NCBI GenBank assembly: GCA_013334485.1
Contig: JAAXXL010000020.1
Coordinates: 1 to 41,711 of the forward strand
Direction: 5' to 3'
Source of the DNA: Chlorobiaceae bacterium
GTDB taxonomy: Bacteria; Bacteroidota; Chlorobiia; Chlorobiales; Chlorobiaceae
Length of the DNA stretch: 41,711 bases
Positions 2,060-19,091 of the stretch are shown here, in pieces. Below the pieces are notes generated by a model, which was not told where the DNA came from, searched no databases, and worked only from the letters and a program-made list of their open reading frames with translations. Each line of letters starts with the position of its first letter. The stretch's first letter is position 1. The position numbers and the translations under genes were made by a program.

Positions 2060-2596
2060 ATGTATTTGGGGACTATAATTAATAGCGGTGCGCACATGTT
2101 TGAATATCATATTTTGATTTGAACAGTAATAATTTATATCAAATTGAACGTATTCAATATTGTATACCATATTACCGGTATTTTATTGCATCACTCTTGA
2201 TTATTATACAAAATAATGGTTTTTTATCAGGCTTGAAATAATCAATATGATATTTATGAAGTCTATACTTTTCTTAAATATGTCCTGTCGTTGTTTGTCT
2301 TACAGGATACTTCCTGATATACAAGTAGTCGTCTCAATTTAGGCTTTGAATATATAGCCAAGGTCTTCAGGAGCCGGTTCTTATTGTCAGAGAGTCGGCT
2401 CTTTTTGTTTTCGGTATAATTAACATGAAATCTAAAAAAAAGAATAATTGTATGGCTGTAAAAGAAGTTAGAACTAAGTGGCGATGTTGTTTTAATTGCT
2501 GTCTGACAAGCAGAGTTTTCGCTCTCAGTTAGAAGTATTATCAGGCAATATCTCGTACAGTAATTGTTAATCAAGGAACTTAAACGCAAAAATAAT
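2060..2596 (+). other. Long AT-rich leader/intergenic region before the porin operon
   Basis: About 540 bases without a credible gene. It contains a hairpin TCCTGT/ACAGGA near 2283-2307, a small GGCT/AGCC hairpin near 2342-2359, and a segment TCCTGA (near 2312) that can pair with TCAGGA (2367-2372), which overlaps the 5' arm of the terminator-like hairpin at 2369-2410. That geometry could allow alternative folds, though the sequence is not similar to the 427-498 fold. Beyond the hairpin, 2411-2596 is AT-rich and unremarkable. Confidence 0.3.
2369..2410 (+). terminator. Terminator-like hairpin, copy of the one at 521-561
   Basis: GAGCCG (2371-2376) pairs with CGGCTC (2396-2401), followed by TTTTTGTTTT. 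The loop matches that of the 521-561 copy at nearly every base (GTTCTT..TGTCAGAGAG), which is more than a shared terminator shape requires. It is 310 bases after the sulfotransferase stop and 190 bases before the porin ATG. Confidence 0.6.
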
Positions 2597-3973: not shown

Positions 3974-4005
3974 CAGACTATAAAACAATGAAAGGAGAGA
4001 AGATT

Positions 4006-5040
4006 ATGAAAAAGTGGATAAAAGCATTTTTACCGGTCGCAGCACTTCTTGTTATGGGGGTGAATGCTGAAGGAGCGGTAAACCCGAGAGTGATCCGGTT
4101 TGCCTACCCGGCAGCAACCAATCCCGGATATGCCGGTGCACCGGTAATCAACGTGATTAATGACCAGGGGTTGTTTGAAAAAGAGTTCGCGAAGGATGGT
4201 ATTAAAATCGAACAATCCTATATCAAGACAGCCGGACCCGGCACCAATGAGGGGTTTGCAGCCGGACTGTTCGACTTTGCCGATTATGGGGATTTTGCAA
4301 TTGTGCTTGGAAAAGCCGGAGGATTGAAAAACAAGCTTATTCTGGCTCCCTCCAAAGGCGGTAACGTTTATGTGCTTGCCCGTGCAGCTCTGCATATCAA
4401 GTCCATCAAGGATTTAAAAGGAAAGCGGGTCTCATACTGGAAAGGCACGGTACTTCAGACACAGGCGCTAAGAGTGCTTGAGGCTCATGGATTGACCGAG
4501 AAGGATATCCGGCAGGTAAACCTTAGTCTTGCCGATGCCCAGGCAGCGCTTGCAGCAGGAAGTATTGATGCAATTGTGGGAACCTACGATCGTCCTCTTA
4601 TTGATCAGGGCCTTGCAACACTGGTTTACGATACACGTAATTTTCCAATCTCCAAAAGATATCGTGAAGGACTTGTCGTTACTGATGATTTCGCAAGAAA
4701 ATATCCGGATATCACAAGGAGGGTTGTCAAGGTCTTTATCCAGGCAAGTCATTGGCTCTCTCAGGAGAAGAACAAGGAGCAGCTTGCCCAGTTGCTGGTC
4801 AAGACCGGAGCCAAATACAAATACATCAAGGGGGAGATCGGAGTCGGTAACCTGCCGGTAAAAGAGCAGTACAATCCTCTGCCGAACAAGGAGTTTGTTG
4901 ACGGTTACAAGGATCTTGTTCAGTACTCACTCAACAAACGGCTGATCAGGACCAATATTGATGTTGATCAGTGGGTAGACAAGAGCTACGCGGATGCTGC
5001 GGTGAAAGAGCTGGGCTTGCAGAACTATTGGGCTAAGTAA
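4006..5040 (+). CDS. Periplasmic binding protein of a sulfonate/nitrate/taurine-type ABC importer (SsuA-like)
   Basis: A 344-residue exported protein of the NMT1/SsuA fold. The ATG at 4006 has a good ribosome site (AAAGGAGAG, 9 bases upstream) and begins a signal peptide (MKKWIKAFLPVAALLVMGVNAEG, about 23 residues). Family features are 'IRFAYPAATNPGYAG' at the mature start, 'GLFEKEF..DGIKIEQ', 'FAAGLFDFADYGDFAIVLGKAGG', 'IKDLKGKRVSYWKGTVLQTQALRVLEAHGL' and 'ALAAGSIDAIVGTYDRPLI'. It would capture substrate in the periplasm and deliver it to the two permeases. The spacing after the porin stop is 32 bases, so one transcript is likely. Aliphatic or aromatic sulfonates or sulfate esters are plausible given the nearby sulfotransferase-like gene, but nitrate, taurine and pyrimidine-precursor binders share this fold. 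Confidence 0.75.
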   Translation: MKKWIKAFLPVAALLVMGVNAEGAVNPRVIRFAYPAATNPGYAGAPVINVINDQGLFEKEFAKDGIKIEQSYIKTAGPGTNEGFAAGLFDFADYGDFAIVLGKAGGLKNKLILAPSKGGNVYVLARAALHIKSIKDLKGKRVSYWKGTVLQTQALRVLEAHGLTEKDIRQVNLSLADAQAALAAGSIDAIVGTYDRPLIDQGLATLVYDTRNFPISKRYREGLVVTDDFARKYPDITRRVVKVFIQASHWLSQEKNKEQLAQLLVKTGAKYKYIKGEIGVGNLPVKEQYNPLPNKEFVDGYKDLVQYSLNKRLIRTNIDVDQWVDKSYADAAVKELGLQNYWAK

Positions 5041-5100: not shown

Positions 5101-5898
5101 ATGATAAAAAATTCCCTGAAAAAGCTGGAGTTGAAGGATAAGCTTTTGGCGCTTATTGTGCCTCTGCTTCTGCTTGCAGCGTGGCAGAGTGCAGTATCGC
5201 TGGAGCTATGCTCACCGCTGTTGCTTATACCACCGTTAACCCTGCTCGACACGCTACTCTATCTTGCTGACTCCGGAGAGCTCACCATTAACATCATAGC
5301 AAGCCTGAACCGTGTGCTTGTTGGCTTTCTGATAGGAGGGTTATCGGGATTTTTGCTTGGACTCTTTATGGGACTTTCACCCTTTCTTGACCGATTTGCA
5401 GGACCGTTGATAAAGGCATCCAAACAGGTTCCCCAGTTTGCGCTGATGCCTCTCATCATTTTGTGGTTCGGCGTAGACGAGCTTGCAAAATATGTATTTA
5501 TCGCGATAGGAGCATTTTACCCGATGGTATTCAATACCTACCAGGGGGTGAGCACGGTTTCCAAAAGGTATCGCGAACTTGCCAGAGTATTCGATTACAG
5601 GGGAGCTCGTTTTCTGACAAAAGTCATACTGCCAAGCGCAATGCCCTCTATTATCACCGGTGTTCGCCACAGTCTTGGTTTATCATGGATGTTTGTCGTT
5701 GGCGCTGAAATTTTCGGAGCTGACACCGGTCTTGGTTACATGATGGCAGCAGCCCGCAATATGTTTCAGATCGATATTGTCATGGCGGGGCTTGTGGTTA
5801 TTGGCGCTATAGGTTTCAGCATAAATTTTATTCTGCAGGTAATTGAAAAGCGGCTGCTTGTATGGCGTTTTTCATCAGACCAGGGAGCGAGCAAATAA
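5101..5898 (+). CDS. ABC importer permease, SsuC/TauC-like (first of two)
   Basis: A 265-residue inner-membrane protein of the binding-protein-dependent permease family. The first membrane segment lies at about residues 16-36 (LLALIVPLLLLAAWQSAVSLE). Several further segments follow. The cytoplasmic EAA loop is visible as 'ELARVFDYRGARFLTKVILPSAMPSIITGVRHSLG', the contact point for the ATPase, followed by 'SWMFVVGAEIFGADTGLGYMM'. It starts at ATG 5101 and ends by overlapping the next gene by one base (TAATG). It is a paralogue of the next gene, so the channel is probably a heterodimer, whereas classical SsuC is described as a homodimer. Confidence 0.8.
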   Translation: MIKNSLKKLELKDKLLALIVPLLLLAAWQSAVSLELCSPLLLIPPLTLLDTLLYLADSGELTINIIASLNRVLVGFLIGGLSGFLLGLFMGLSPFLDRFAGPLIKASKQVPQFALMPLIILWFGVDELAKYVFIAIGAFYPMVFNTYQGVSTVSKRYRELARVFDYRGARFLTKVILPSAMPSIITGVRHSLGLSWMFVVGAEIFGADTGLGYMMAAARNMFQIDIVMAGLVVIGAIGFSINFILQVIEKRLLVWRFSSDQGASK

Positions 5899-6677
5899 TG
5901 AAGAGAACTGAAAAGATAAAAATCAAGCTTATTGGTATTGCGTTGCCAATACTCCTGTTGATCCTTTGGCAATACGTGGTCTCCGCAGGTTTTGTATCGC
6001 ATCATATTCTTCCTTTGCCCGGACAGGTTCTCACAACACTGGTGAGGCTTTTTACGGAAGAGAAGCTTATTCTCCACATTGCTATCAGTTTAAGACGCGT
6101 CATCTACGGGCTTTTGATCGGGACAGCTTCCGGTTTCCTCTTTGGATTACTGATGGGACTGTCAAGAACAGCAGAGAAGATTTTTGCGCCGACCTTTCAT
6201 ACGGTACGGCAAGTTCCCCTGATCGGCTGGATACCATTAATTGTTATGTGGTTCGGTATGAACGAGCTGCCGAGAATCCTCATTGTTGCGATAGGTGCTT
6301 TTTATCCTACAACCCTGAATACCTTTTCTGGCGTACGTGATGTTCCTCGCAGGTATAAAGAACTCGCCGCTGTTTATGGCTACAAAGGGTTCAAGCTTAT
6401 TCGTCGTGTCATTTTGCCATCAGCATTTCCTTCAATCATAACCGGTTTTACCCTCAGCCTCGGAATGTCCTGGGTGCTGTTGATTGCCGCCGAGCTTCTT
6501 ATAGAGACTATTGCCGGTATTGGCAAACTGATTGATGTTGGCCGAGATACCTTCAATATGGAACTGGTCGTCGCAGGAATCCTGATTTCCGGATTGCTTG
6601 GATTTACCATGACAAAGATTGTTGAAAAGCTGGTACAGGCGGTGCAGAAGGGCAGGGTTTTTGAACAGGAACTTTAA
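5898..6677 (+). CDS. ABC importer permease, SsuC/TauC-like (second of two)
   Basis: A 259-residue inner-membrane permease. The start is ATG 5898, overlapping the previous stop by one base and preceded by GGGAGCGAG; the earlier in-frame ATG at 5862 lies inside the preceding gene and lacks a ribosome site. The EAA loop reads 'ELAAVYGYKGFKLIRRVILPSAFPSIITGFTLSLG', followed by 'SWVLLIAAELLIETIAGIGKLIDV'. Similarity to the upstream permease runs through the whole length ('FGLLMGLSR', 'VRQVPLIGWIPLIVMWFGMNELPRILIVAIGAFYP'), indicating tandem duplication and divergence. It would pair with that protein and the ATPase at 6701. Confidence 0.8.
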   Translation: MKRTEKIKIKLIGIALPILLLILWQYVVSAGFVSHHILPLPGQVLTTLVRLFTEEKLILHIAISLRRVIYGLLIGTASGFLFGLLMGLSRTAEKIFAPTFHTVRQVPLIGWIPLIVMWFGMNELPRILIVAIGAFYPTTLNTFSGVRDVPRRYKELAAVYGYKGFKLIRRVILPSAFPSIITGFTLSLGMSWVLLIAAELLIETIAGIGKLIDVGRDTFNMELVVAGILISGLLGFTMTKIVEKLVQAVQKGRVFEQEL

Positions 6678-6700: not shown

Positions 6701-7480
6701 ATGTCAATCGAGAAAGGTACTCTTCAAATCAGGAACCTGAGCAAAAGCTTCACTGTTGACGGCAATGCCCTGCAGGTACTCAACAACATTAATTTAACCT
6801 TCCCGGCAGGGAGTTTTATCTCCATTGTCGGCTCCAGCGGTTGCGGAAAGACAACCCTGCTCAGGATACTGCTCGGTCTTGAGACCAATTATGAGGGTGA
6901 TGCGCTGCTCGATGGTGAACGCATTGAGGGACCGGGTACAAACCGGGGAATTGTTTTTCAGGATCACAGGCTGCTTCCCTGGCTTACCGTCGGGGAGAAT
7001 GTTGCTTTCGGTCTTGACAAACAGAACCGCAAGGCAAAGAAAAAAATCGTTGATGAACACTTGAAGCTGGTCGGCCTCAGTGGATTTGAGAGTGCTTATC
7101 CGGCACAGCTCTCAGGCGGAATGGCTCAGCGAGTAGCTATTGCAAGAGCATTGGCTAACAAGCCGGAAATTCTCCTTCTCGATGAACCTCTCGGTGCTCT
7201 CGATGCCCTGACCAGAATGCATATGCAGAAGGAGCTGGAGCGGTTGTGGCTGCTTGAAAAGATCACCATGGTTATGGTCACGCATGATGTTGATGAGGCG
7301 ATCTACCTGAGTGATATCGTGGTCATTATGTCCTCCCGTCCCGGGATTATCAAACAAATCATCAAGGTCCCGTTCCCGAGACCTCGTGACAGGGCAAGTT
7401 CCGAGTTTTCGCACATCAAAGCCGAGATTTTGAAGGAGTTTCATCTTGGTACGGAGTATCCGTTTGCCTATGCCATCTGA
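6701..7480 (+). CDS. ABC importer ATP-binding protein, SsuB/TauB-like
   Basis: A 259-residue cytoplasmic ATPase that drives the importer encoded by the preceding genes. Motifs are intact: Walker A 'GSSGCGKTT' (about residues 43-51), Q-loop 'IVFQDHRLLPWLTVGENV', signature 'LSGGMAQRVAIARAL', Walker B plus D-loop 'ILLLDEPLGALD' and H-loop 'MVTHDVDEA'. The Q-loop with LLPW and the C-terminal 'SRPGIIKQIIKVPFPRPRDR' are characteristic of the nitrate/sulfonate/taurine (CUT-unrelated) importer ATPases. It lies 23 bases after the second permease. The ribosome site is weak (AAAGATAAATTAAC). No terminator is evident after it. Confidence 0.85.
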   Translation: MSIEKGTLQIRNLSKSFTVDGNALQVLNNINLTFPAGSFISIVGSSGCGKTTLLRILLGLETNYEGDALLDGERIEGPGTNRGIVFQDHRLLPWLTVGENVAFGLDKQNRKAKKKIVDEHLKLVGLSGFESAYPAQLSGGMAQRVAIARALANKPEILLLDEPLGALDALTRMHMQKELERLWLLEKITMVMVTHDVDEAIYLSDIVVIMSSRPGIIKQIIKVPFPRPRDRASSEFSHIKAEILKEFHLGTEYPFAYAI

Positions 7481-7539: not shown

Positions 7540-9315
7540 ATGCATAATATTTTCAGGCTTGCTTCTTATGTCAGACCATACTGGAAAGAGTCCTTTTTTT
7601 CTCTTTTCATGTTGATTGCTGTTGTTGTGATGGATTTGAGTATTCCCCGTCTGATCCAGAAGATTATTGATCAGGGTATTCAGCAGCATAACCTTCTGGA
7701 GGTAATCAATACAGGCCTTCTGATGCTTGTTATAACCCTGCTGAGTCTTTTTTTTGCAGTCGGGGCACATATTCTCTCCGTTAAAGTTGGTGAGAGTGTA
7801 GCCCGTGATCTTCGTGAAGCACTGTTTCTGAAAATTCACACTTTTTCATTCGGCAATATTGATCGACTGAAAACAGGCCAGCTTATGGTGCGTATGTCCA
7901 GTGATACCTCTGCTCTCCAGCGTGTGGCTCTGGTTTCGTTAAGAATAGGTACGAGATCGGTGTTTCTGATGTGCGGAAGTTTTATGCTGATGGTGCAAAC
8001 AAGCAGCACTCTTGCTCTGACTATTCTTCCACTACTCCTGCTTACAGCCGTTCTGATTATTTTTTTTGTTACGAAAATGGAACCGCTCTGGCACTCTGTT
8101 CAGCAACAGCTTGATCGACTCAACACTGTTTTGCAGGAAAATATTGCAGGGATTCGCCTGATCAAGGTATTTGTACGTGAGCATTTTGAGTTTATTCGTT
8201 TTGATCATGCAAACAGCTTGTTTACTCGCGATTCTATTACGGTTATGAAATTTATGGCGACTATGCCTCCAGTATTGACTATGTGTATCAATATTGGTAT
8301 GGTTCTGGTTATTTGGGTTGGAGGGCTTGATGCTATAAAGGGCAAGATGAGCATCGGGCAGGTGGTTGCTTTTACCAATTACCTTTTGACCACCATGGCG
8401 CCCCTTATTTTTATGGCAAACTTGTCGAATGTATGGGCTGGTGGTCTTGCTTCGGCTGACAGGGTCTCAGAAGTTCTTGATATTGTTCCGGATATAGTGG
8501 ATCTGCCTGAATCTGTGGAAATGCCGATTTCACATCAGGGTGGCAGAATTGTCTTTGAGCATGTCTCTTTCCAGTATAGTCGCGAGTGTGGCATTCCTGT
8601 CCTTTCGGAGATTGATTTTGTGGCCGAACCCGGAGCGACTCTTGCAATCCTTGGCGCTACGGGTTCAGGCAAGTCAACGCTTGTGAATCTGATACCTCGC
8701 TTTTATGAGATATCATCAGGCAAAATTATGATTGATGGTATTGATATTCGCAATGTTACCCAGGACTCACTTCTATCAAGAATAGCCTTTGTTCCCCAGG
8801 AGACGGTGCTTTTTTCAGGAACTCTGCTTGATAATATCCGGTATGGAGTGCCTGATGCAAGTATGGAGGCAGTTATTGACGCGGCACAAGCTGCCCAGGC
8901 TCATGATTTTATTGTCAAATTGCCCGAAGGTTATGACACCCGGATTGAAGAGCGGGGTGCCAATCTATCCGGAGGACAGAAGCAGCGTATCGCGATTGCA
9001 AGAGCCATTCTTTCCTCTACGGATATTCTCATATTTGACGACAGCACCAGTGCCGTTGATATTGATACGGAAACCCGAATACAGGAGGCACTTCGCCGAA
9101 AAGCAGAGAATTGTACGGTGCTTCTGGTTGCCCAGCGGATCAGTACGGTCCTGAAGGCAGACAAAATTATTGTGCTTGATAAAGGAACTCTTGCCGGGCA
9201 GGGTAATCACTCTTCCTTGATGCAAAGTTGTGCTGTCTATCAGGAGATTTACGCTTCGCAGTTGGGCGGAGCAACATTTCCCGAAGGCGTCAGAACCATA
9301 CAGGAGGTAGCATGA
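7540..9315 (+). CDS. ABC exporter half-transporter, subunit with degenerate catalytic site
   Basis: A 591-residue type I ABC exporter half. An N-terminal six-helix domain (about residues 15-310) is followed by an ATPase domain (about 335-580) with Walker A 'GATGSGKST', signature 'LSGGQKQR', Walker B 'ILIFDDSTSAVD' and H-region 'LLVAQRIST'. The catalytic Glu after Walker B is replaced by Asp, and the usual switch His (AHR) is Gln (AQR). Its partner downstream has the canonical residues. This split of canonical and degenerate sites matches heterodimeric exporters such as TM287/288 and LmrCD/BmrCD. The next gene overlaps by four bases (ATGA), implying coupled translation. Substrate is unknown; lipids or amphipathic compounds are common for the family. 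Confidence 0.85.
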   Translation: MHNIFRLASYVRPYWKESFFSLFMLIAVVVMDLSIPRLIQKIIDQGIQQHNLLEVINTGLLMLVITLLSLFFAVGAHILSVKVGESVARDLREALFLKIHTFSFGNIDRLKTGQLMVRMSSDTSALQRVALVSLRIGTRSVFLMCGSFMLMVQTSSTLALTILPLLLLTAVLIIFFVTKMEPLWHSVQQQLDRLNTVLQENIAGIRLIKVFVREHFEFIRFDHANSLFTRDSITVMKFMATMPPVLTMCINIGMVLVIWVGGLDAIKGKMSIGQVVAFTNYLLTTMAPLIFMANLSNVWAGGLASADRVSEVLDIVPDIVDLPESVEMPISHQGGRIVFEHVSFQYSRECGIPVLSEIDFVAEPGATLAILGATGSGKSTLVNLIPRFYEISSGKIMIDGIDIRNVTQDSLLSRIAFVPQETVLFSGTLLDNIRYGVPDASMEAVIDAAQAAQAHDFIVKLPEGYDTRIEERGANLSGGQKQRIAIARAILSSTDILIFDDSTSAVDIDTETRIQEALRRKAENCTVLLVAQRISTVLKADKIIVLDKGTLAGQGNHSSLMQSCAVYQEIYASQLGGATFPEGVRTIQEVA

Positions 9316-11135
9316 GCCGCATACAAGACAATGTGCGTGATCGCCAGAAGAGTATGGGATTTGGAAACATGGCGCAACCCGGTCCGATAGAAAAACCTCA
9401 AAATAGTACAGCCGCCACCAGTCGATTGCTTCGATATCTCTATCCTTTCAAGGTAAAGCTTTGGGCTGTATTTATTCTGGTAGTGCTCTATTCTCTTCTC
9501 GGACTGGTCGGCCCCTGGCTTATGGGGGTTGCCATAGATCGTTTTGTTGTTGAAAAAAACAGTTCCGGGCTTGAAACAGTATCGTTACTGATGCTGCTCT
9601 GCTACCTTTTATACAACCTTTTTCAGCTTATTGCCGGCTGGGTTATGGCAAGTGTCTCCCAGAGTGCCCTGAGGCAGTTGAGCGGAGATCTATTTACCCA
9701 CATCCAGACGTTGCCGGTCAGTTATTTCGACCATCACCCGGCAGGTGGACTTATGAGCCGGCTGACAAATGATATTGATGCAATCAATCAGGCGGTTTCA
9801 CAGAATATTATTGCACTTCTTGGCAGTCTTCTCTCTCTTGCTGGTATTATTATTGCGATGCTGCTGCTTGATCTCTGGCTTACTGTCACAGCATTGCTTG
9901 TGGTGCCGATAATGCTCTTCTCAACGCAGTTTGTTGCCCGATATACCCGCAAAGGTTTTCGGGAGTATCAAAAGAAGCTTGGCGAGATAAACAGTGTTAT
10001 GGAAGAGTCAATCAGCGGTCTGAAGGTTATCAAGGCCTTTCGTCGTAACGCTGAAGTCATCGAGCGGTTCCGGGTTAATAACGAGCAGGTTTATAGCGCT
10101 GCGGTCTATGCAAACAGTTATGCTATGCTTCTCATGCCGCTGACCAATGTTCTCGGGAATCTGTTTGTGATAGTTATTGCCGGTTTTGGCGGGTGGATTG
10201 CTCTCAAAGGACTTGTCAGCGTTGGTGTTATTGCCACCTTTATCATGTATGGACAGAATTTTATTCAGCCGCTTCGCCAGCTTTCAACTATGTATAATAC
10301 AATACAGGCCGCTCTGGCGGGGAGCGAAAGAATATTTGAAATTCTTGATATCCCGTCAGAAGTTGATCTGTCAAAGGAAATCGCTCCGACAACTATTGGG
10401 GGGCGGATATGTTTCGATCGTGTCACTTTTGCTTATGAGAATGGGGCTCCGGTAGTCCGGGATATGTCGTTTGTTGCCGATCAGGGTAAAACCATTGCGC
10501 TTGTCGGGCCAACAGGGGCGGGAAAAACAACTATTATTAATCTGCTGACCCGTTTTTATGAGATCAACGGAGGCGCAATTACCATTGATGCTCAAGATAT
10601 TCGGGATTTTGGCAAGGCGCGCCTCCGCAGCAGGATTGGTCTGGTGCTGCAGGATACCTTTCTTTTTTCAGGTACGGTGATGGAAAATATCCGATTTGGC
10701 CGACTCAATGCTTCTTATGATGAATGCGTTCATGCTGCTGAGCTTGCTGAAGCTGACGAGTTTATCCGGCAACTCCCAAAGGGATATAACACCGTTTTAT
10801 CTGAAAGGGCGGGGAATCTGAGTCAGGGGCAGCGTCAGTTGCTGGCCATTACCAGGGTTATTCTGGCAAATCCGGATATCCTTATTCTTGATGAGGCTAC
10901 CAGCAGTGTCGATACCCGAACCGAGCTGCGTATTCAGAAAGCCCTGTTGACACTCATGAAGGGAAGAACCAGCTTTGTTATTGCCCACAGGCTCAGTACC
11001 ATTCGCGATGCAGACAGGGTACTTGTTATCGACAAGGGCACAATAGTTGAACAGGGGAGTCATCAGGAGCTTCTTGAACAGAAAGGGATGTATTCCAATC
11101 TCTACCTGAGCCAGTTCAAAGGACAGGAGATATGA
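9312..11135 (+). CDS. ABC exporter half-transporter, canonical partner subunit
   Basis: A 607-residue type I exporter half. The start is ATG 9312, overlapping the preceding stop (ATGA) and served by AGGAGG at 9302-9307; an open frame reaching further upstream is only overlap with the previous gene. A ~45-residue cytoplasmic extension precedes the membrane domain, as in TM288-type subunits. The ATPase domain carries Walker A 'GPTGAGKTT', the unusual signature 'LSQGQRQLL', Walker B with catalytic Glu 'ILILDEATSSVD' and switch His 'IAHRLST'. LSQGQ opposite LSGGQ in the partner is the known signature pairing of heterodimeric exporters. The pair should form one transporter with a single hydrolytic site. 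It runs toward the minus-strand gene at 11149. Confidence 0.87.
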   Translation: MSRIQDNVRDRQKSMGFGNMAQPGPIEKPQNSTAATSRLLRYLYPFKVKLWAVFILVVLYSLLGLVGPWLMGVAIDRFVVEKNSSGLETVSLLMLLCYLLYNLFQLIAGWVMASVSQSALRQLSGDLFTHIQTLPVSYFDHHPAGGLMSRLTNDIDAINQAVSQNIIALLGSLLSLAGIIIAMLLLDLWLTVTALLVVPIMLFSTQFVARYTRKGFREYQKKLGEINSVMEESISGLKVIKAFRRNAEVIERFRVNNEQVYSAAVYANSYAMLLMPLTNVLGNLFVIVIAGFGGWIALKGLVSVGVIATFIMYGQNFIQPLRQLSTMYNTIQAALAGSERIFEILDIPSEVDLSKEIAPTTIGGRICFDRVTFAYENGAPVVRDMSFVADQGKTIALVGPTGAGKTTIINLLTRFYEINGGAITIDAQDIRDFGKARLRSRIGLVLQDTFLFSGTVMENIRFGRLNASYDECVHAAELAEADEFIRQLPKGYNTVLSERAGNLSQGQRQLLAITRVILANPDILILDEATSSVDTRTELRIQKALLTLMKGRTSFVIAHRLSTIRDADRVLVIDKGTIVEQGSHQELLEQKGMYSNLYLSQFKGQEI

Positions 11136-11148
11136 CTTACAGTTGCGC

Positions 11149-11823
11149 TTATAAATTGCGTCCTTCTGTAAAGAGCCGTTTGTAGTAAAATCCGCTGGTG
11201 TAGAGTGCGGCTGCCGGGTTGTGCCCGAGCAGTCGATCCTTGGTTATCAGTGTGGTAACAGGAGCGTCGGAGTGCTTCATAAAGAGCGCATCGTGGCCGA
11301 CACAGAGGCCGATGATCACATTCAGCTCGGTTTTCTCTTTATTCAGCAGCTTTGCCTGCAGGATCGGATTGCAAAGGGATTCATGCGATCCCTTCTGGAT
11401 TTTCAGATTCTCGTCGATTCCAATTTCACTTTTATCTACGGAACCTACCTTGCAGATGACCGAGTATGGTTCCAGATCGTTAATTTTCAGCACTTTGGCA
11501 AAAATCCCGGATTCTGCTGACAACCCTATACATGTCGCAAGCCCTATCTTTTTTGCTCCAATCCGGTTGGCAAAGGCAATAATCTCTTCAACACGGGTCA
11601 ATTTACCGTAGTAAGTGCCTTCAACCTCTGCGGATGCACGAGCTATTTTAGCGTCAATCGTCTCTCCCCGGTATTGGTTGGTTACCCTTTCCAGCTCTTC
11701 GCTCCCGACAGCTTCAGAGAGACATGAATTAGGAAAACGGCGATCCTGGCGGTAACAGTTCAGGAGTCCGCAGTCCGTACAGCCGGAATCTTTATGCTCT
11801 GAGGGGTCAGGTTGGGTCATCAT
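11149..11823 (-). CDS. DUF1847 family Cys-rich protein
   Basis: A 224-residue protein matching the DUF1847 family, thought to bind metal, of unknown function. The N-terminus has the Cys cluster 'CTDCGLLNCYRQ'; further Cys follow in 'ATCIGLSAESGIFAK', 'VICKVGSVDKSE' and 'IGLCVGHDALFMKHSDAPVTTLITKDRLLGHNPAAALY', all recognisable parts of this family. ATG 11823 is immediately followed by a second ATG, so the exact start may be 11820. It is 17 bases downstream of the flavoprotein gene on the same strand, so they are likely co-transcribed. A role as an accessory redox or metal protein for the divergent reductase operon is inference from position only. Confidence 0.75.
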   Translation of the reverse strand: MMTQPDPSEHKDSGCTDCGLLNCYRQDRRFPNSCLSEAVGSEELERVTNQYRGETIDAKIARASAEVEGTYYGKLTRVEEIIAFANRIGAKKIGLATCIGLSAESGIFAKVLKINDLEPYSVICKVGSVDKSEIGIDENLKIQKGSHESLCNPILQAKLLNKEKTELNVIIGLCVGHDALFMKHSDAPVTTLITKDRLLGHNPAAALYTSGFYYKRLFTEGRNL

Positions 11824-11840
11824 TAAAAAAAGGGTAAGTG

Positions 11841-12476
11841 TTACCTGATGAAGCTGGTCATGATTTTGTTAACGGGTTCCGGCCCAGGCAAGGTGTTTTT
11901 TGTTGCTTCACGCATCTTGAGCAGCCACGCCATATTGCGACCGAGCACCTCCATAATCTGAACCCCTTCACCATCCTGCAACACCTCTCCGGGTGCTCTT
12001 CCGTGCGTGATGTTCCAATAGTTTGAAGTTGCTTGAATCATTTCCGCAAAGGTGAGATAGTGGTTCAGGCAGTCAAATGTGGACGAGCCGCCTGTCCGGC
12101 GAACTGCTACCACGGAGGCGGCAACTTTCTGACGGAAGAGGCTGCCATTGCATGCTGCAACATAGAATGCCCTGTCGAGAAAGCATTTCATGGTTCCTGC
12201 GACACCGGCAAAATAGACCGGTGAACCAAGAATGATTCCGTCAGCGTTTTTGATCTGCTGGATCCATTCATTCAGCGGGTCGGAGCTTATACTACATTTC
12301 TCATCGCGATTTTTAGCACAGGTTCCGCAGGCCATACATCCTCTGACAGCCTTGTTTCCAACATGGATAATTTCAAAGTCGATTCCGTTTTTCTGCAACT
12401 CACTGCCGACACCGGCGAGCGCATGAAAGGTGTTGCCATCCTGTTTCGGACTGCCGTTGATTGCTATGACGTTCAT
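11841..12476 (-). CDS. Iron-sulfur flavoprotein / flavodoxin-family NAD(P)H reductase
   Basis: A 211-residue flavodoxin-like protein. The start at 12476 is chosen because the product then begins directly with the flavin-binding strand 'MNVIAINGSPKQDGNTFHAL'; upstream in-frame codons lack a family match. The FMN site continues with 'GIILGSPVYFAGVAGTMKCFLDR'. Between them lies 'CMACGTCAKNRDEKC' (Cx2Cx2Cx7C), the compact 4Fe-4S motif of Isf-type iron-sulfur flavoproteins, which shuttle electrons between ferredoxin-like donors and other carriers. It is divergent from the activase/dehydratase operon and upstream of the DUF1847 gene. Feeding electrons to the ATP-dependent reductase is an attractive but untested idea. 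Confidence 0.8.
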   Translation of the reverse strand: MNVIAINGSPKQDGNTFHALAGVGSELQKNGIDFEIIHVGNKAVRGCMACGTCAKNRDEKCSISSDPLNEWIQQIKNADGIILGSPVYFAGVAGTMKCFLDRAFYVAACNGSLFRQKVAASVVAVRRTGGSSTFDCLNHYLTFAEMIQATSNYWNITHGRAPGEVLQDGEGVQIMEVLGRNMAWLLKMREATKNTLPGPEPVNKIMTSFIR

Positions 12477-12859
12477 TTGTTTCAGTTGAAGTTTCCGATA
12501 TGCGCACGCATTCGTATAAAATATAAAATCCTGATTTCGTTGCAATGAGCCCTGTATTGCGCCAAGATCAACATTTTGAGAGCCGCTTTGCAACCCTGTA
12601 CCATAAAAATACCAGCTTTACGGTATCCGTCTACCCTGCAACTCAAGGCACCTCAGAATAACACACTGCTTGACTCTGTCAAAACGCTATTGTGGTATAA
12701 AATATACCGCTTCAACGGGATTTCGTACTTCACAAGAAGAAGCGATCTTGACGTATTGTTTAGAGGCTATTGGAAAGATTCATCCGGTTGCACGCCAACT
12801 TTACAGGTGATGATTGACAGGAATTATGCATGACAATGAAATCAAAACAGGAAAACTGA
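12477..12859. promoter_or_regulatory. Divergent promoter region with palindrome GGTATA-AAA-TATACC
   Basis: A 383-base gap between divergent genes. It has a perfect palindrome at 12694-12708 (GGTATA AAA TATACC) positioned like an operator over a possible -10 element; a TTGACT at 12670-12675 lies 20 bases before TATAAA, slightly too far for an ideal promoter. A 15-codon open frame (12826-12873, preceded by ACAGGA) overlaps the start of the activase gene and could be a leader peptide. No other gene is supported here. Confidence 0.35.
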
Positions 12860-13729
12860 ATGAAAAAAACTGAAGTCCTTGCTGATGAGAAGGTTTCCGA
12901 TTTGGGAGCAGCCACGGTGATAGGTATCGATATTGGTTCGCGCCAGGCCAAGGCGGTTCTGGTGTATGGCGATGAAATCTATACAACAATTACGGCAAGT
13001 GGTGTTGATTCACAGGAAACTGCCGGGAGGCTCATCAAAAAAATCGGAAAGCAGGCCGGAATCGGACACCAGGATATTGCCTATGTCGTGGGTACCGGTT
13101 ACGGGCGTATTGCACTTAATTTTGAAGCCTTTCCAACCGAGGTAGTGACCGAGATCTCCTGCCATGCGATGGGTGCACATTTTCTTAATGCGGGAACCAG
13201 AACGATCATTGACATTGGCGGACAGGATTCAAAAGCGATCAAGGTTGATCCGGACAATGGTCGTGTTGTTGAATTTGTGATGAACGACAAGTGTGCCGCA
13301 GGAACCGGACGCTTTCTGGAAAAGGTTGCTGAACTGCTTGATTACCAGCTCGAAGAGCTTGGCCAGAAGGCACTGCTCGCGGAGAAAAAACTCGAAGTCA
13401 GCAGCCAGTGTGTGGTTTTTGCCGAATCCGAAGTTATTTCGCTCAAGGCAAAAGGGGAGCGACGCGAGGATATCGCTGCGGCAATTCATTTTGCCTCTGC
13501 GCGTCGTGTGCGTAACCTGGTCAACCGTCTTGGTCTGGAGCCTGAACTTGTCTTTTCGGGCGGAGTATCCAACAATCCGGGAATGAAGCATGCACTCGAA
13601 GAGTTAATCGGCCATCCGATCAAGACAACCAAACTTGACATGGTTTATGCCGGTGCCCTGGGTGCCGCCGTGTTTGCCCAGCGTTATTACGAAGGCGCAA
13701 ATGCTGCTCGCGAAAAGGAGGTCGCATGA
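12860..13729 (+). CDS. ATP-dependent activase of the 2-hydroxyacyl-CoA dehydratase / benzoyl-CoA reductase family (BcrA/HgdC-like)
   Basis: A 289-residue ASKHA-fold ATPase that hydrolyses ATP to push electrons at low potential from a shared 4Fe-4S cluster into a partner reductase. The phosphate-1 loop is 'VIGIDIGSRQAKAVL' (residues 20-34), phosphate-2 is 'IIDIGGQDSKAI' (116-127), and the adenosine motif is 'FSGGVSNNPGM'. The two Cys that hold the bridging cluster of the homodimer are visible as NDKC(145)AAGTG and SSQC(184)VVFAES. Start ATG 12860 has AGGAAAA upstream. It overlaps the next gene by four bases (ATGA). It is highly similar to the N-terminal half of that gene's product with both Cys at identical residue numbers, pointing to a tandem duplication. 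Confidence 0.88.
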   Translation: MKKTEVLADEKVSDLGAATVIGIDIGSRQAKAVLVYGDEIYTTITASGVDSQETAGRLIKKIGKQAGIGHQDIAYVVGTGYGRIALNFEAFPTEVVTEISCHAMGAHFLNAGTRTIIDIGGQDSKAIKVDPDNGRVVEFVMNDKCAAGTGRFLEKVAELLDYQLEELGQKALLAEKKLEVSSQCVVFAESEVISLKAKGERREDIAAAIHFASARRVRNLVNRLGLEPELVFSGGVSNNPGMKHALEELIGHPIKTTKLDMVYAGALGAAVFAQRYYEGANAAREKEVA

Positions 13730-15735
13730 AGCTTGCTGAAGTTATTGATCAGAGAGTGGTCGGAGAGATCGATAATAATACCGTGCTGGGAGTAGATATC
13801 GGATCTCGCGGAGCCAAGGCGCTGCTGTTGCATGAGGGTGAACTCTTTGCCGTACAGGTGCCGACCGGGGTTAACATGCAGGAAACGGCTGACGAACTTC
13901 TTGACGAACTGCTTGAGGAAGCCGGTATAGGGCGGGAGCAGATTCGTTTCATTGTCGGGACGGGATATGGCCGTATTGCGCTCCCGTTCATTGAGATACC
14001 AAGCGAGATCGTCACGGAAATTTCCTGCCATGCGATGGGTGCACATTACTTGAATGCTGATACCCGCACGATTATCGACATTGGTGGTCAGGACTCGAAG
14101 ACGATTCAGGTTGATCCAAAGAGCGGCAAGGTCTCCAAATTTATCATGAACGATAAATGCGCGGCTGGTACCGGGCGTTTTCTGGAAAAAGCCGCAAGCC
14201 TTCTTGAATACACAATTGCTGAACTCGGCCCGGCCTCTCTGCGTGCCGAGTCGCAACCGCAGATCAGCAGCCAGTGCGTTGTGTTTGCCGAATCCGAGAT
14301 TATTTCTCACCGTGCGCGCGGCGAAACCCGCGAAGCCATAGCGGCAGGTCTACATTATGCATCAGCACGGCGCGTAAAAAATCTGGTCAGCAAGATTCCT
14401 CTTGAAGGTGATCTTGTGTTCACTGGCGGTGTTTCAAATAACGTCGGTATGAAAAAAGCACTGGAAGATCTTATTGGGCTGTCGATCAAGCCTTTCAAGC
14501 TCGATCCGGTCTATGCCGGTGCGCTTGGCGCTGCGGTTTATGCCCAGCGTTTTTATGCGGAAGAGCGCAGGCCAGACTTTGATGCTGATGAAATATCCAA
14601 CGCTGATATCAGTGAAATTCTTGAGCGCACGGTGGCTGCCGAAAAGACGTTCATTGAAAGAACAGATGTGAAAAAGATCGGCTATCTCTGCACTTATACG
14701 CCGATTGAACTGCTTGCTGCTTCGGGAGCAGCGCATACACGTCTCATGAAATGCGGTGAGCCGGAAGTTGTTTCCAGGGGTGAACTGATTACCAAAAGCG
14801 TCTTTTGCGACTTCACCAAGAGTCTATTGGGGCACTTTGCCGAAAAGGATCCGCTGCATAACGCTCTTGACCAGGTCGTAACCTTCTACACCTGTGACTC
14901 AATGAAAGCTACCGCAGAGGCTATCGATAACTTTTTTGTTCCTTCGCTCGGTTATGTTGTCCCTCGTGATGGAGGCCGTGAACAGGGGCGGAGGTTTTTT
15001 CGTCAGCAAATCCTCAACTTCAGGAAAGACCTTTCAACACTGACAGGAAAACTGGTTTCTGAAGATGAGTTGTCGGAGCAGATTCAGCTCTACAACCAGG
15101 CACGTCGTCTGATCCGTGATATCTCGGCGCTGCGCAAGCGTGACAATCCTCCGCTCAGTGGTCGCGATTTTCTGGAAATCACCAAATCCTTTTATAACCT
15201 CCAGCCGGAAGAGCAGCTTGTGCTGCTTGAAGATCTCTATCTGAGGCTGTCAGGTACACCCGAGAGCGGTCCGGCACCATTACGTCTCATGATGGCGGGT
15301 GGAATAGTGGCTGATGGCGATCGTCGTATCCTTGACATGATTGAAGATGAGATTGGAGCTCGTATTGTAGTGGAAGATCACTGTGCAGGTTACGGTGCTT
15401 TCTCTCATGATACGGACGAAAAGAGTGATCCATGGCAGGCACTTGCCAATGCCTATCTCGACCAGGCTCCGTGTGCTCGACAGACTCCACTTCAGAAACG
15501 GATCGATTTCTCGGCTGAACTGGCTACTGAATATCGGGTTCAGGGAGTAATCTACAACTACCTCAAGTTCTGCCCATGCTACGGTATGGCCAAGAACAGC
15601 TTTGTGCGTCGTTTCCAGGATATGGATCTTCCCGTGCTGGAGCTGGCAAGTGATTATTCCCAGGGAGATACCGGGCAGATCAAGACCCGTCTGGAAGCCT
15701 TCGTTGAAGTGTTAAAAGAAAAACAGGAGATATAG
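13726..15735 (+). CDS. Activase fused to 2-hydroxyacyl-CoA dehydratase-type subunit (BcrD-BcrB-like fusion)
   Basis: A 669-residue fusion. Residues 1-280 are a second complete ASKHA activase (VLGVDIGSRGAKALL; cluster Cys145 in NDKCAAGTG and Cys184 in SSQCVVFAES). A linker (~281-315) leads to a HgdB/BcrB-type subunit (~316-669), the family that receives electrons at its own Fe-S cluster and reduces the substrate. Its signature is clear: 'IGYLCTYTPIELLAASGA' (Cys322), Cys343, 'SVFCDFTKSLLG' (Cys361), 'VVTFYTCDSMK' (Cys390), 'EDHCAGYGAF' (Cys553) and 'KFCPCYGMAKNSF' (Cys616/618). The gene overlaps the first activase and is followed after one base by a second dehydratase-type subunit. Fusion of activase and reductase subunit in one chain is uncommon compared with hydroxyglutaryl-CoA dehydratase systems, though multi-domain relatives exist. 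Substrate unknown; no CoA ligase is nearby. Confidence 0.85.
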   Translation: MKLAEVIDQRVVGEIDNNTVLGVDIGSRGAKALLLHEGELFAVQVPTGVNMQETADELLDELLEEAGIGREQIRFIVGTGYGRIALPFIEIPSEIVTEISCHAMGAHYLNADTRTIIDIGGQDSKTIQVDPKSGKVSKFIMNDKCAAGTGRFLEKAASLLEYTIAELGPASLRAESQPQISSQCVVFAESEIISHRARGETREAIAAGLHYASARRVKNLVSKIPLEGDLVFTGGVSNNVGMKKALEDLIGLSIKPFKLDPVYAGALGAAVYAQRFYAEERRPDFDADEISNADISEILERTVAAEKTFIERTDVKKIGYLCTYTPIELLAASGAAHTRLMKCGEPEVVSRGELITKSVFCDFTKSLLGHFAEKDPLHNALDQVVTFYTCDSMKATAEAIDNFFVPSLGYVVPRDGGREQGRRFFRQQILNFRKDLSTLTGKLVSEDELSEQIQLYNQARRLIRDISALRKRDNPPLSGRDFLEITKSFYNLQPEEQLVLLEDLYLRLSGTPESGPAPLRLMMAGGIVADGDRRILDMIEDEIGARIVVEDHCAGYGAFSHDTDEKSDPWQALANAYLDQAPCARQTPLQKRIDFSAELATEYRVQGVIYNYLKFCPCYGMAKNSFVRRFQDMDLPVLELASDYSQGDTGQIKTRLEAFVEVLKEKQEI

Positions 15736-15736
15736 A

Positions 15737-16978
15737 ATGTCGCTTACGCTTACAGAAGAAAAAATAACGACCCGGAAGGAACTTGAAAGCCAGCTTGCCT
15801 ATATCGAAGAGAGCAAGCATGATCATCGTTACTCTCCGGCTGTTATCAAAATTTATGATCTGGCTTTGAGTTACGTTGAGGATGCTGAAGAGCATGCAAG
15901 AAGTGGGGGGAGGGCAGCCTGGGCTACGGGAATATGGGATGCGCCGCTCTTTTATGCCCTCGATATTGTTCCTATATCATTTACAGAGCTCGGCAGGCTT
16001 GGTTCGGCTGATGCCATGACTCTGGCCGAGGATTACTTTCAATTTCCCAAAGAGACCTGCTCAATGGTCTCTGCGTTGCTGGGGGAGTGGTATCTTCGTC
16101 TTAATCATCCGGTAAAGGATATTGTGGTTTTCAACTCAGCATGTGAACCACTCAATATCGGCTGGGATTTGATTGCCGCTGAAGGCTATAATCTCTATCG
16201 CGTTGAGGCGGTTAATCGACCACGAGACAACGATCCGGATCGTCTTGCTGAACAGGTGCAGTTCCTTGTTGACGAGCTTGCTGATCTGGCAATCCGTCTT
16301 ACCGGAAAACCTCTGGATCCGGCTCGTCTGGAGCACGAGATCAAACGTGTAAATCGCATTATCGGCAAGGCCCGGCAAATCATCGAGCTGCGAAAGCATA
16401 ATCCGCTCTATATCAAAAGTCTGGCTACCATGTTTCTGCTCATGGGTACGGGCCACTATTTCGGCAAACCGGAAGAGTTTGAGGCTACCCTTGACCTGCT
16501 CATCGAAGAGCTGAAGGTGGCCGACTATATCCCTTCACCACGCGGTAAAATTGTTCCGCTCGCCTGGATCGGCGGGCGCGGTCAGGAGTTTGGTGTTTAC
16601 AAGACTGTTGATGATTGCGGTGGAGCCATCACCGCCTGGAGTACACCAAACTCATGGACTCATGAGTGGCCGGAAGATGACGATCCGTTGAAAGCTATGG
16701 CCAAGCATATTCTCGGAACAACCGGAGGGCATGTGATCGGCTCACCGGTACACCGCCTGAAGAGAATAGAAGCGTTGGTTGAAGAGTATGGTGCAAAGGG
16801 AATTCTCTTCTACTCCTATGTCGGATGCTCCTTTGCCGGAGTTCACCAGGAGATACAGCGGGACCATTTCCATAAACTGGGTATCCCCTCAATCGGACTT
16901 GAAGGCAGTTTTCAGGTCGGGCCACCATCGGGTCAGTTGTTGACAAGAGTAAGAGCATTCGTTGAAATGCTTTCCTGA
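15737..16978 (+). CDS. 2-hydroxyacyl-CoA dehydratase / benzoyl-CoA reductase-type second subunit (BcrC/HgdA-like)
   Basis: A 413-residue protein of the same fold as the C-terminal half of the preceding product but only distantly similar. Recognisable blocks are 'AWATGIWDAPLFYALDIVPISF', 'ETCSMVSALLGEWYL' (Cys108), 'DIVVFNSACEPLNIGWDLI' (Cys136), a middle helical region ('LEHEIKRVNRIIGKARQIIELR') and the closing 'GILFYSYVGCSFAGVHQEIQRDHFHKLGIPSIGLEGSF'. The first cluster Cys of the family (in GYLC) is replaced here (GIWD), so cluster coordination must differ from the partner. It starts one base after the fusion gene's stop (TAG-A-ATG) with AGGAGAT upstream, so expression is coupled. A double-cubane-cluster type of reductase subunit is another possibility. 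An inverted-repeat terminator follows. Confidence 0.82.
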   Translation: MSLTLTEEKITTRKELESQLAYIEESKHDHRYSPAVIKIYDLALSYVEDAEEHARSGGRAAWATGIWDAPLFYALDIVPISFTELGRLGSADAMTLAEDYFQFPKETCSMVSALLGEWYLRLNHPVKDIVVFNSACEPLNIGWDLIAAEGYNLYRVEAVNRPRDNDPDRLAEQVQFLVDELADLAIRLTGKPLDPARLEHEIKRVNRIIGKARQIIELRKHNPLYIKSLATMFLLMGTGHYFGKPEEFEATLDLLIEELKVADYIPSPRGKIVPLAWIGGRGQEFGVYKTVDDCGGAITAWSTPNSWTHEWPEDDDPLKAMAKHILGTTGGHVIGSPVHRLKRIEALVEEYGAKGILFYSYVGCSFAGVHQEIQRDHFHKLGIPSIGLEGSFQVGPPSGQLLTRVRAFVEMLS

Positions 16979-17066: not shown

Positions 17067-18293
17067 TCAGGCCCTGTGGGGCACTCGACCGTTCCAGCAG
17101 CGGAGGGGCTCTTTTTCGATCATGATCGCGCAATGGTTGCACATGGTGCATCGCGAGGCGTTTTGGCTCTGCTCCTCAAACTTCCTCACGATGGATGGAT
17201 CGTTTATGAAGGGGCGTGACATTGAGATGAAATCGGCATCTCCGTCTGCAATGGTTTTTGAGGCATCTTCAAGAGTGTGAATACCGCCGACAGCCATTAC
17301 CGGGATTGAAACAGCCTTTTTGATGGCACTGGCCACCTCAAGGTTGTATAAATGGTATGGTTTCGGGCTCTCCGGACTGATCAAAGGCAGGATGCGGGCA
17401 ATCATCGGCCTCAGCCACTTTGGCAGGGCGTCCAGCTTGAAATTGTTGGCTTTGAGCAGCGCGTCCGTCGGCATTTCTGGTCCCCGCATAATCGCCAGTC
17501 CTTCGCTAACCGTGCCGGAGGAGATCTCAACGGCGGAGCATCCGGAGGCCTCAAGCATCATGGCAATCTTCACTGCCTCGTCCGGTCGCATTCCGCCGGG
17601 CATGCCGTCGTAACCATTCATTTTTGCCAGCACCGGATAATGCCCCAGCCTTTGGCGGATACGCACAATGATCTCCAAAACGATCCGGAACCGGTTCACA
17701 AGAGAGCCTCCCCAACTGTCACGCCTCCGGTTGGTGTAGCCGGAGAGGAACTGCGCAAGCAGGTACCCATGCGCCAGATGCAACTGCACCCCATCGAAAC
17801 CTGCAGCCTGTGCCCGAACCGCAGCATCAACAAATGCATTGATGATCGCCCTGATCCCTTGCTCCGTCAGCGCCATTGGCTCCTCTTCGCTGAAATACCG
17901 GTCCCTTACAGGCGACGGAGCCACTGTTCTCATGCCGGTGACAGCCGAACGGGTCTGAGCGCCGCAATGGGCAAGTTGTATGATCAACGCTGCTCCCTCG
18001 CGGTGAACTGCTTCGACGAGCCGCCGGTAAGCTGGTATCAACGCGTCGCTGTGCATCATCAGCATTCCGGGGAAACTGCTCCTGCCCTGCGGAAGTACAC
18101 CCGCATACCCGGTCACAATAGCGCCAGCACCGCCCTTTGCGAGACGCAGATAGAGTTTTTCAAGCGACTCCAGCGGAGCACCGTCAGTATCGGCCATCCC
18201 CTCATGCGTCGCCGAACGGATAAAACGGTTGCGAACTGATATGCCGCCGATATGAGCAGGCTCAAAGATTCCGGATGATTCTGTCATGACCAT
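17067..18293 (-). CDS. Old Yellow Enzyme family NADH:flavin oxidoreductase with C-terminal Fe-S motif
   Basis: About 408 residues of an FMN TIM barrel. Family motifs run in order: 'NRFIRSATHEGMAD', 'IIQLAHCGAQT', 'DAAVRAQAAGFDGVQLHLAHGYLLAQFLSGYTNRRRDSWGGS', 'VLAKMNGYDG', 'IPVMAVGGIHT' and 'DADFISMSRPFINDPSIV'. The protein ends with 'CTMCNHC' followed by 'CWN', the 4Fe-4S ligand motif of the 2,4-dienoyl-CoA reductase subgroup, but stops there without the C-terminal FAD/NAD(P)H domains. Such short forms reduce activated C=C bonds with electrons from outside partners. The start is uncertain: 18293 or 18287 (ATG), with a less likely TTG at 18314; none has a strong ribosome site. It is convergent with the dehydratase operon, so co-function is suggested only by proximity. 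Confidence 0.82.
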   Translation of the reverse strand: MVMTESSGIFEPAHIGGISVRNRFIRSATHEGMADTDGAPLESLEKLYLRLAKGGAGAIVTGYAGVLPQGRSSFPGMLMMHSDALIPAYRRLVEAVHREGAALIIQLAHCGAQTRSAVTGMRTVAPSPVRDRYFSEEEPMALTEQGIRAIINAFVDAAVRAQAAGFDGVQLHLAHGYLLAQFLSGYTNRRRDSWGGSLVNRFRIVLEIIVRIRQRLGHYPVLAKMNGYDGMPGGMRPDEAVKIAMMLEASGCSAVEISSGTVSEGLAIMRGPEMPTDALLKANNFKLDALPKWLRPMIARILPLISPESPKPYHLYNLEVASAIKKAVSIPVMAVGGIHTLEDASKTIADGDADFISMSRPFINDPSIVRKFEEQSQNASRCTMCNHCAIMIEKEPLRCWNGRVPHRA

Positions 18294-18437
18294 GTAAGAG
18301 AGATAATTAAGCAAATATAAGAGTTTCGATATTATTACTTCAACACACGATGCCTGAATAATTTTCTTGCAGGGTCATTTACTCGATTTCAAGGCCGTAT
18401 TTGCAGGAAAGGTGTGTGCATGCGCGAGTCAAACCGG

Positions 18438-18602: not shown

Positions 18603-19091
18603 TTAAGGGAGTGAAGGTTTGATTGCTTCTGTCTTGTTTTTCGCCGGACGTTCGTACTTGAAGATGCAGACGGGGCTGCCGAGAGCCTGACGGCAGAGGA
18701 TTTCTCCCTTCATCTCCGGGAAGGCCCTGCGGGATGCCTCCATATCCAGTTCGCAAATCACGTGGCATGGTGTGTCGAATCCGAACTCTTTGCCTGCTTC
18801 GAGGTAGGGGCAGACCCTTTGTATCTCAAGGGCGGCATCAATACCCAGGTTTGAAATGTCCACAGCCACCATATCCATGCCGATCGCATTGAAAATCGGA
18901 ATGGACTTGAGAAACCCTTCGATGAGGGTTGGCAGTGCAAGCAGAGGCCCCATGCGCTGCTTCTGGAGTTCGGGGAAACCCTCCAGCATTGTTTCCCATG
19001 CCTTATCCTCTCCGAACTCACTCTTAAGCTCCCTGAATTTCGAAAACTTTTTTCTTGCAGATTCCAGCAACTCCGAGTTAGCGTTTTGCAT
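18603..19091 (-). CDS. L-2-amino-thiazoline-4-carboxylate (ATC) hydrolase-like protein
   Basis: A 162-residue protein. The C-terminal half has the pattern of the ATC hydrolase family: 'RVCPYLEAGKEFGFDTPCHVICELDMEASRRAFPEMKGE', then 'CRQALGSPVCIFKYERP'. In the namesake family the enzyme opens the thiazoline ring on the way to L-cysteine, but most genomic members are uncharacterised and many sit next to redox or corrinoid genes. The N-terminal half is helical and charged. Start is ATG 19091; the reverse strand upstream (TAAACAGGGAGACCCGGCC) gives a plausible GGGAG site. A link to organosulfur or cysteine supply in this window would be in keeping with region 1, but it is an inference. Confidence 0.6.
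   Translation of the reverse strand: MQNANSELLESARKKFSKFRELKSEFGEDKAWETMLEGFPELQKQRMGPLLALPTLIEGFLKSIPIFNAIGMDMVAVDISNLGIDAALEIQRVCPYLEAGKEFGFDTPCHVICELDMEASRRAFPEMKGEILCRQALGSPVCIFKYERPAKNKTEAIKPSLP

Follow-up and report, generated by a model that had tools for sequence, protein, structure and literature searches.

Class I benzoyl-CoA reductases (BCR) of the Bzd, Mbd and Bcr types (BzdNOPQ; PDB 8s02, 9gai) are built from two activase domains, a double-cubane subunit and a catalytic subunit with three cluster Cys. The family fold, an activase and a three-Cys catalytic subunit recur in (R)-2-hydroxyisocaproyl-CoA dehydratase HadBC-HadI (PDB 3o3m, 4eht) of the 2-hydroxyacyl-CoA dehydratases (HAD), and a six-Cys double-cubane site with an ATP-driven activase recurs in the double-cubane cluster protein (DCCP) and its reductase (PDB 6eno, 7yyl). 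Double-cubane clusters operate at very low redox potentials, and the characterised BCR/HAD relatives act on CoA esters (PMC11971306). On an unrelated scaffold (NifHDK-like plus radical SAM), isethionate reductase (Isr) genes isrBHDK together with the isethionate transporter genes ssuCAB of Rhodobacter capsulatus confer isethionate-dependent growth, and their locus is isethionate-induced (PMC11423573). Here we describe a three-gene operon of a Chlorobiaceae bacterium, located in a 41,711-nt stretch of DNA (contig JAAXXL010000020.1 of assembly GCA_013334485.1, hereafter the window). Judged by its sequences, the operon enzyme is a member of the BCR/HAD superfamily that follows the logic of a double-cubane ('N') and a catalytic ('O') subunit and lies outside the characterised BCR and dehydratase families sampled. 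We regard it as an even question whether it is an ATP-dependent double-cubane reductase of a new lineage whose substrate is an organosulfur compound, probably a sulfonate, taken up from outside.

The first-pass annotation of the window had proposed a free activase, an activase fused to a dehydratase-type subunit and a second dehydratase-type subunit, and the open reading frames (ORFs) were exactly as described, with all Pfam assignments of the three proteins (BcrAD_BadFG, HGD-D) far over cut-off. The ORFs of the free activase and the fusion share 4 nt, and the fusion and third genes are 1 nt apart. Structures of MbdQ, HadI and HgdC were the PDB matches of the free activase, which is 62% identical to the fused activase domain; both domains keep Cys145 and Cys184, as had been claimed, and these are predicted to hold a bridging [4Fe-4S] cluster. 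In the fused HGD-D domain Cys 322, 361, 390, 553, 583 and 616 all align with the double-cubane Cys of DCCP (7yyl). The third protein has three cluster Cys, C108, C136 and C364, which are invariant in 14 sequences and in a profile alignment coincide with BzdO Cys95, Cys128 and Cys380, which in the BzdNO structure ligate the catalytic [4Fe-4S]-OH2 cluster (PMC11971306); a [4Fe-4S]-OH2 cluster is predicted here as well. The four-module composition of a class I BCR that had been recognized is thus present, in the form of two activase domains, a six-Cys N-type and a three-Cys O-type subunit. Two details of that description changed. Loss of the first cluster Cys had been thought to set the third protein apart; three Cys are lost, in a pattern shared with BzdO, MbdO and HadB, and since this loss is the usual hallmark of catalytic subunits in the superfamily, the 'missing' Cys are expected. 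The 'BcrD-BcrB' fusion is indeed a distinguishing trait, found at all 13 related loci described below, but the fused domain matched the NCBIfam models of BzdN (112 bits) and BcrC (61 bits) with no BcrB or BzdO match, and it is therefore better called an activase-BcrC/BzdN-type fusion. Equating W67 of the third protein (GIWD) with BzdO Trp46 depended on the alignment (W62 or T64 took its place in others) and was given no weight; copies of this protein in Rhodobacterales have a Cys near that position (MCGG).

The HGD-D (PF06050) and activase (PF01869) folds of the BCR/HAD superfamily are both present, and the placement within it was examined by models, folds and phylogeny. The top NCBIfam model for both HGD-D domains was NF040772 (double_cubane), with 214 bits for the fused domain and 66 bits for the third protein, both below its cut-off of 350, and the operon subunits scored far below the cut-offs of the BCR equivalog models. 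An AF2 model of the third protein (pLDDT 80, pTM 0.84) matched DCCP (Z 35.6), HadC (35.6), BzdN (35.1), BzdO (27.0) and HadB (26.7), with the next unrelated fold at Z 9.5; the model of the whole fusion was poor (pLDDT 64, pTM 0.45). DCCP was the best match of the third protein by both fold and sequence; it also led the sequence matches of the fused subunit's HGD-D domain. In a tree of 35 HGD-D domains (HgdAB left out) an N/O split was supported at 98/98, with the third protein, the BzdO/MbdO/HadB group and other chlorobial 'O' proteins on one side and the fused domain, DCCP, the BzdN/MbdN/HadC group and chlorobial 'N' proteins on the other. Separate 100/100 clades were formed by the third protein and by the fused domain, both outside the Bzd/Mbd/Had clades (O, 100/99; N, 98/97). 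AU tests did not distinguish between a place of the third protein next to the BCR/HAD catalytic subunits and one next to the other chlorobial catalytic subunits (p 0.34). Two further HGD-D N/O pairs, from Rhodovulum strictum (L050/L055, G062:C66:9165-11459) and Aromatoleum diolicum (L056/L061, G064:C75; L-numbers denote loci and G-numbers genomes, G000 being the window's own), grouped with Mbd/Had and were not close to the characterised enzymes compared.

In a scan of 84,980 species genomes the third protein turned up at 13 further loci, in eight Chlorobiaceae/Chlorobiales metagenome-assembled genomes, three Aromatoleum species, R. strictum and Rhodobacter viridis. All 13 have the order activase, activase-HGD-D fusion, HGD-D with close spacing; conservation across three bacterial groups shows that the arrangement is neither chance nor an assembly artefact, and that the fusion is a stable trait of a small family. 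Within the window's own family 9 of 86 genomes carry the fusion-type operon, and R. viridis was the sole find in a search of 395 Rhodobacteraceae genomes. At one locus (L031) tandem third-protein genes (8449-9720 and 9947-11221) stand behind a single activase-fusion pair, which suggests alternative catalytic subunits sharing one electron-activating unit.

We then compared the active site of the third protein with that of BzdO, where Tyr97, Tyr298 and Gln274 hydrogen-bond the thioester oxygen and the residues acting on the ring are Glu65 and His131 (PMC11971306). None of the six catalytic subunits compared from known or presumed CoA-ester enzymes (two BzdO, MbdO, HadB and the O subunits of the further Aromatoleum and Rhodovulum pairs) lacked Tyr97 (in a C-x-Y motif) or Tyr298. 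In the third protein Tyr97, Tyr298 and His131 are replaced by Met110, Thr303 and Leu139. Met (in C-S-M) and Thr occupied the Tyr97 and Tyr298 positions in 7/7 third-protein sequences of the alignment, Aromatoleum copies included, and C-S-M was invariant in 14/14 orthologues. The residue at the His131 position varies within the superfamily (in the same alignment MbdO has F and HadB has V), whereas the two Tyr do not. Absence of both Tyr argues against a CoA-thioester substrate, for the Aromatoleum copies too.

The genetic context in R. strictum points to organosulfur uptake. As Isr reference we used a Rhodobacter genome, taken as an R. capsulatus-type locus by its gene-order match to the table of PMC11423573, in which a luciferase-like monooxygenase, SsuC, SsuA and SsuB are followed after an interval by IsrK, IsrD, IsrH, IsrB, Xsc, TauA and TauB, and after another by a cysteine desulfurase and an encapsulin. 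Directly 5' of the R. strictum operon, on the same strand, lie orthologues of the monooxygenase (80% identity to the reference), SsuC (73%), SsuA (69%) and SsuB (70%); 3' of it, again on the same strand, are genes for a rhodanese, CysK-like and CysE-like proteins, an SrpI-type encapsulin (89%) and its cargo cysteine desulfurase (72%). The Synechococcus SrpI encapsulin is induced by sulfate starvation (PMC8049743). About 10 kb upstream, the same strand of the contig also carries a complete isrBHDK set (81, 88, 55 and 53%), and the operon as a replacement of isrBHDK in Rhodovulum was therefore rejected. Of all the evidence for a role in organosulfur assimilation, this neighbourhood is the strongest single item.

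In the Chlorobiaceae loci L019, L021, L022 and L031/L102, an import cassette of the kind found in the window (Table 1) adjoins the orthologous operon and shares its strand. Among the 86 family genomes the gene of the importer's outer-membrane protein (OMP), a putative porin, occurred in 20 of the 21 with HGD-D proteins and in 7 of the 65 without (Fisher p 9e-13), and the D gene of an Isr-like, i.e., nitrogenase-like H-D-K, system in 15/21 and 8/65 (p 6e-7), both p values being uncorrected for relatedness. Six of the seven HGD-D-less genomes with the OMP have the H-D-K system instead; these counts indicate that two types of ATP-dependent reductase, singly or jointly, are combined with one importer type. 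Identities to the reference IsrB, IsrH, IsrD and IsrK are 50, 76, 32 and 38% for the chlorobial radical-SAM, H, D and K proteins, and in the window's own genome the nitrogenase-like genes lie on another contig (G000:C66, L122). Chlorobi are not named among the main phyla in the account of Isr distribution in PMC11423573. Isr-like operons of this family (G000:C66/L122, L118-L121) contain up to several tandem copies of a radical-SAM gene (rSAM2). The same importer also accompanies a second, non-orthologous reductase cluster with one or more activases and several N/O pairs (L025-L028, L103, L105, L110, L112); in L110 the importer operon itself includes the activase, N and O genes, which separate the binding-protein gene from those of the permeases, all on one strand. 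Clusters of this second kind (L025-L028, L103-L112, e.g., L027:2978-14955) encode subunits of 392-417 and 461-486 aa, and their O subunits form a separate 100/99 clade.

Table 1. Features of the operon and of the import cassette in the window.
Feature	Position	Strand	Length	Evidence and remarks
Outer-membrane-barrel-like protein of import cassette	2564-3973	+		Signal peptide, C-terminal Phe; no Pfam match
NMT1/SsuA-family substrate-binding protein	3988-5040	+		PF09084; TIGR01728 (aliphatic sulfonate binding protein) 135 bits, below cut-off 163.5
Two ABC permeases, SsuC/SaoP-like	5101-5898, 5862-6677	+		PF00528; NF040733 and NF008470 below cut-off
Importer ABC ATPase, NitT/TauT/SsuB type	6701-7480	+		PF00005; NF040729, ntrCD and sulfonate ATPase models below cut-offs
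Pair of ABC exporters	7540-11135	+		Gene-order table; also beside other reductase clusters (L025, L026, L028, L110)
Free activase (ATP-dependent electron activator, BcrA/BcrD/HgdC family)	12860-13729	+	289 aa	PF01869 200 bits; TIGR00241 243 bits
Activase-HGD-D fusion protein	13726-15735	+	669 aa	Pfam BcrAD_BadFG, then HGD-D
Fusion, N-terminal activase domain	13726-14595	+	residues about 1-290	PF01869 201 bits
Fusion, C-terminal HGD-D domain	14596-15735	+	residues about 291-669	PF06050 266 bits; double-cubane 'N'-type (BzdN/BcrC/DCCP-like)
Third protein, catalytic 'O'-type subunit	15737-16978	+	413 aa	PF06050 145 bits

Several other genes of the window were noted. An arylsulfotransferase (ASST)-like protein (563-2059, +) borders the import cassette and is possibly another organosulfur gene. 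Divergent from the operon are genes for a DUF1847 protein and an NADPH-dependent FMN reductase-like protein (11149-12593, -), with no counterparts at the other Chlorobiaceae loci examined. Shortly downstream of the operon are an old-yellow-enzyme-type flavoprotein (17067-18314, -) and a protein with a weak, sub-cut-off match to L-2-amino-thiazoline-4-carboxylate hydrolase (18603-19091, -). Further on is a GNAT acetyltransferase with a C-terminal rubredoxin domain (33762-34397, -), next to a CobW-type GTPase.

From the neighbours and the altered active site, the substrate is most likely a small organosulfur compound and not a CoA thioester. In the mechanism that we propose, an SsuABC-like linked importer would bring in the substrate, and ferredoxin or flavodoxin would supply low-potential electrons to the activase pair, i.e., the free activase and the fused activase domain, which would hydrolyze about one ATP per electron, the ratio reported for class I BCR. 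The electrons would then pass to an [8Fe-9S] double cubane of the fused subunit and on to the three-Cys [4Fe-4S] centre of the third protein, the presumed place of substrate binding, where reductive C-S cleavage could release sulfite or sulfide for assimilation. The fusion would tether the electron donor, an activase, to its acceptor, the double-cubane subunit, and the enzyme is probably oxygen-sensitive. It would operate in parallel with IsrBHDK, with which it shares genomic islands, transporter type and the proposed role, ATP-dependent anaerobic reductive cleavage of the C-S bond of an imported sulfonate; the likeness lies in the proposed working and not in family membership. That the operon enzyme is a second, independent type for anaerobic reductive sulfonate cleavage, using a double-cubane/BCR scaffold instead of a nitrogenase scaffold, is a proposal we make with somewhat more doubt than belief. 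A literature search on green sulfur bacteria with benzoyl-CoA reductase and on double-cubane enzymes with sulfonate yielded nothing on this system.

Several observations weigh against an organosulfur reductase. The residue mapping was made at 15-17% identity and is uncertain beyond the Cys motifs, so that the Tyr298 position rests on the alignment. The SsuA-family score is under the curated cut-off, and the importer's transporter superfamily also moves nitrate, thiamine precursors and other compounds. No importer was found near the operon in one Chlorobiaceae genome (G032, L020), and the gene context in R. viridis is weak. For isethionate, IsrBHDK is sufficient by itself in R. capsulatus, and the operon must therefore serve a different substrate or step. 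In Aromatoleum (L037, L040, L041) the operon lies among genes for acyl-CoA ligase, acyl-CoA dehydrogenase, FadB-like, thiolase and molybdopterin proteins, with no sulfur genes beside it, and a CoA-linked substrate is possible there. This setting, in which a divergent AraC regulator precedes the operon, also favours a benzoyl-CoA-type or other CoA-ester reductase, performing Birch-type reduction of an aromatic or unsaturated acyl-CoA with the importer a mere neighbour, as do the four modules and the cluster pattern, which equal those of class I BCR. Such an enzyme is nonetheless unlikely. Compared with class I BCR, the operon fuses an activase to the double-cubane subunit, both subunits form lineages of their own outside the Bzd/Mbd clades, the thioester-binding Tyr and the acid-base His131 are gone, in the Aromatoleum copies too, and the context in Chlorobiaceae and R. 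strictum is one of sulfur uptake. The Aromatoleum genomes with the operon also encode true BzdNO, and one of them MbdNO, so the operon is not their benzoyl-CoA reductase. In the window's own genome, a 96%-complete draft, neither 6-oxocyclohexenecarbonyl-CoA hydrolase (Oah; best 98 bits, cut-off 464) nor benzoate-CoA ligase (best 228 bits, cut-off 375) was found over cut-off, and aromatic degradation was rejected as a reading for this genome. The doubt that the first-pass annotation had itself voiced about an aromatic substrate was well placed, and its 'benzoyl-CoA-type' label does not hold as to substrate; the double-cubane reductase with another substrate that it offered as an alternative came nearer. 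Two traits of DCCP itself, a double-cubane Cys set in every subunit and an NF040772 score over cut-off, are lacking.

A DCCP-like ATP-dependent reductase of a sulfur-free imported small molecule, e.g., a nitrile, nitro or unsaturated compound, would suit the DCCP and NF040772 matches and the breadth of the importer family. We consider it rather improbable: each subunit of the DCCP homodimer has a double cubane, whereas the operon enzyme appears heteromeric, with an activase fusion and a third protein that has only the proximal three Cys and no distal-cluster Cys. It would also not explain why IsrBHDK, SsuCAB and sulfur-assimilation genes are found at the same places. Isr-like genes occur in 7/9 fusion-type genomes and adjoin the operon in L019, L021, L022, L024 and R. 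strictum, as would be expected of a helper of the Isr system that supplies electrons or matures its cofactor and is no independent reductase. There is little to recommend this view, however, since Isr of R. capsulatus functions without the operon (PMC11423573), the operon occurs without Isr in G032, G083 (80% complete) and three Aromatoleum genomes, and it has its own activases and catalytic-type subunit. Least credible, to the point of being very improbable, is a 2-hydroxyacyl-CoA dehydratase, with which the operon shares Pfam families and fold. In characterised dehydratases there is a single activase, and the N subunit holds a [4Fe-5S] cluster (PMC11971306); HadBC-HadI needs electrons only catalytically. 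The operon, by contrast, keeps six double-cubane Cys and encodes two activases, the HadB/HadC clades are separate in the tree, and no fermentation genes are among the annotated neighbours. The type 1 mlp/corrinoid cluster was also considered as a related system and rejected, its activases being unrelated Ram/RACE enzymes.

The natural substrate of the archetype DCCP is not known, and a conserved fused relative makes the role of such enzymes testable. In two phyla the gene neighbours link the fused version to the import of sulfonates and the assimilation of sulfur, and one of its carriers, R. strictum DSM 11289, is a cultivable strain. If our reading of the operon as an organosulfur reductase is true, it would give sulfur assimilation its first known member of the BCR/HAD superfamily, and a double-cubane reductase a natural non-CoA substrate. 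Most green sulfur bacteria are without key genes of assimilatory sulfate reduction (PMC5498476); for them, the operon would then represent an added anaerobic route to organosulfur compounds.

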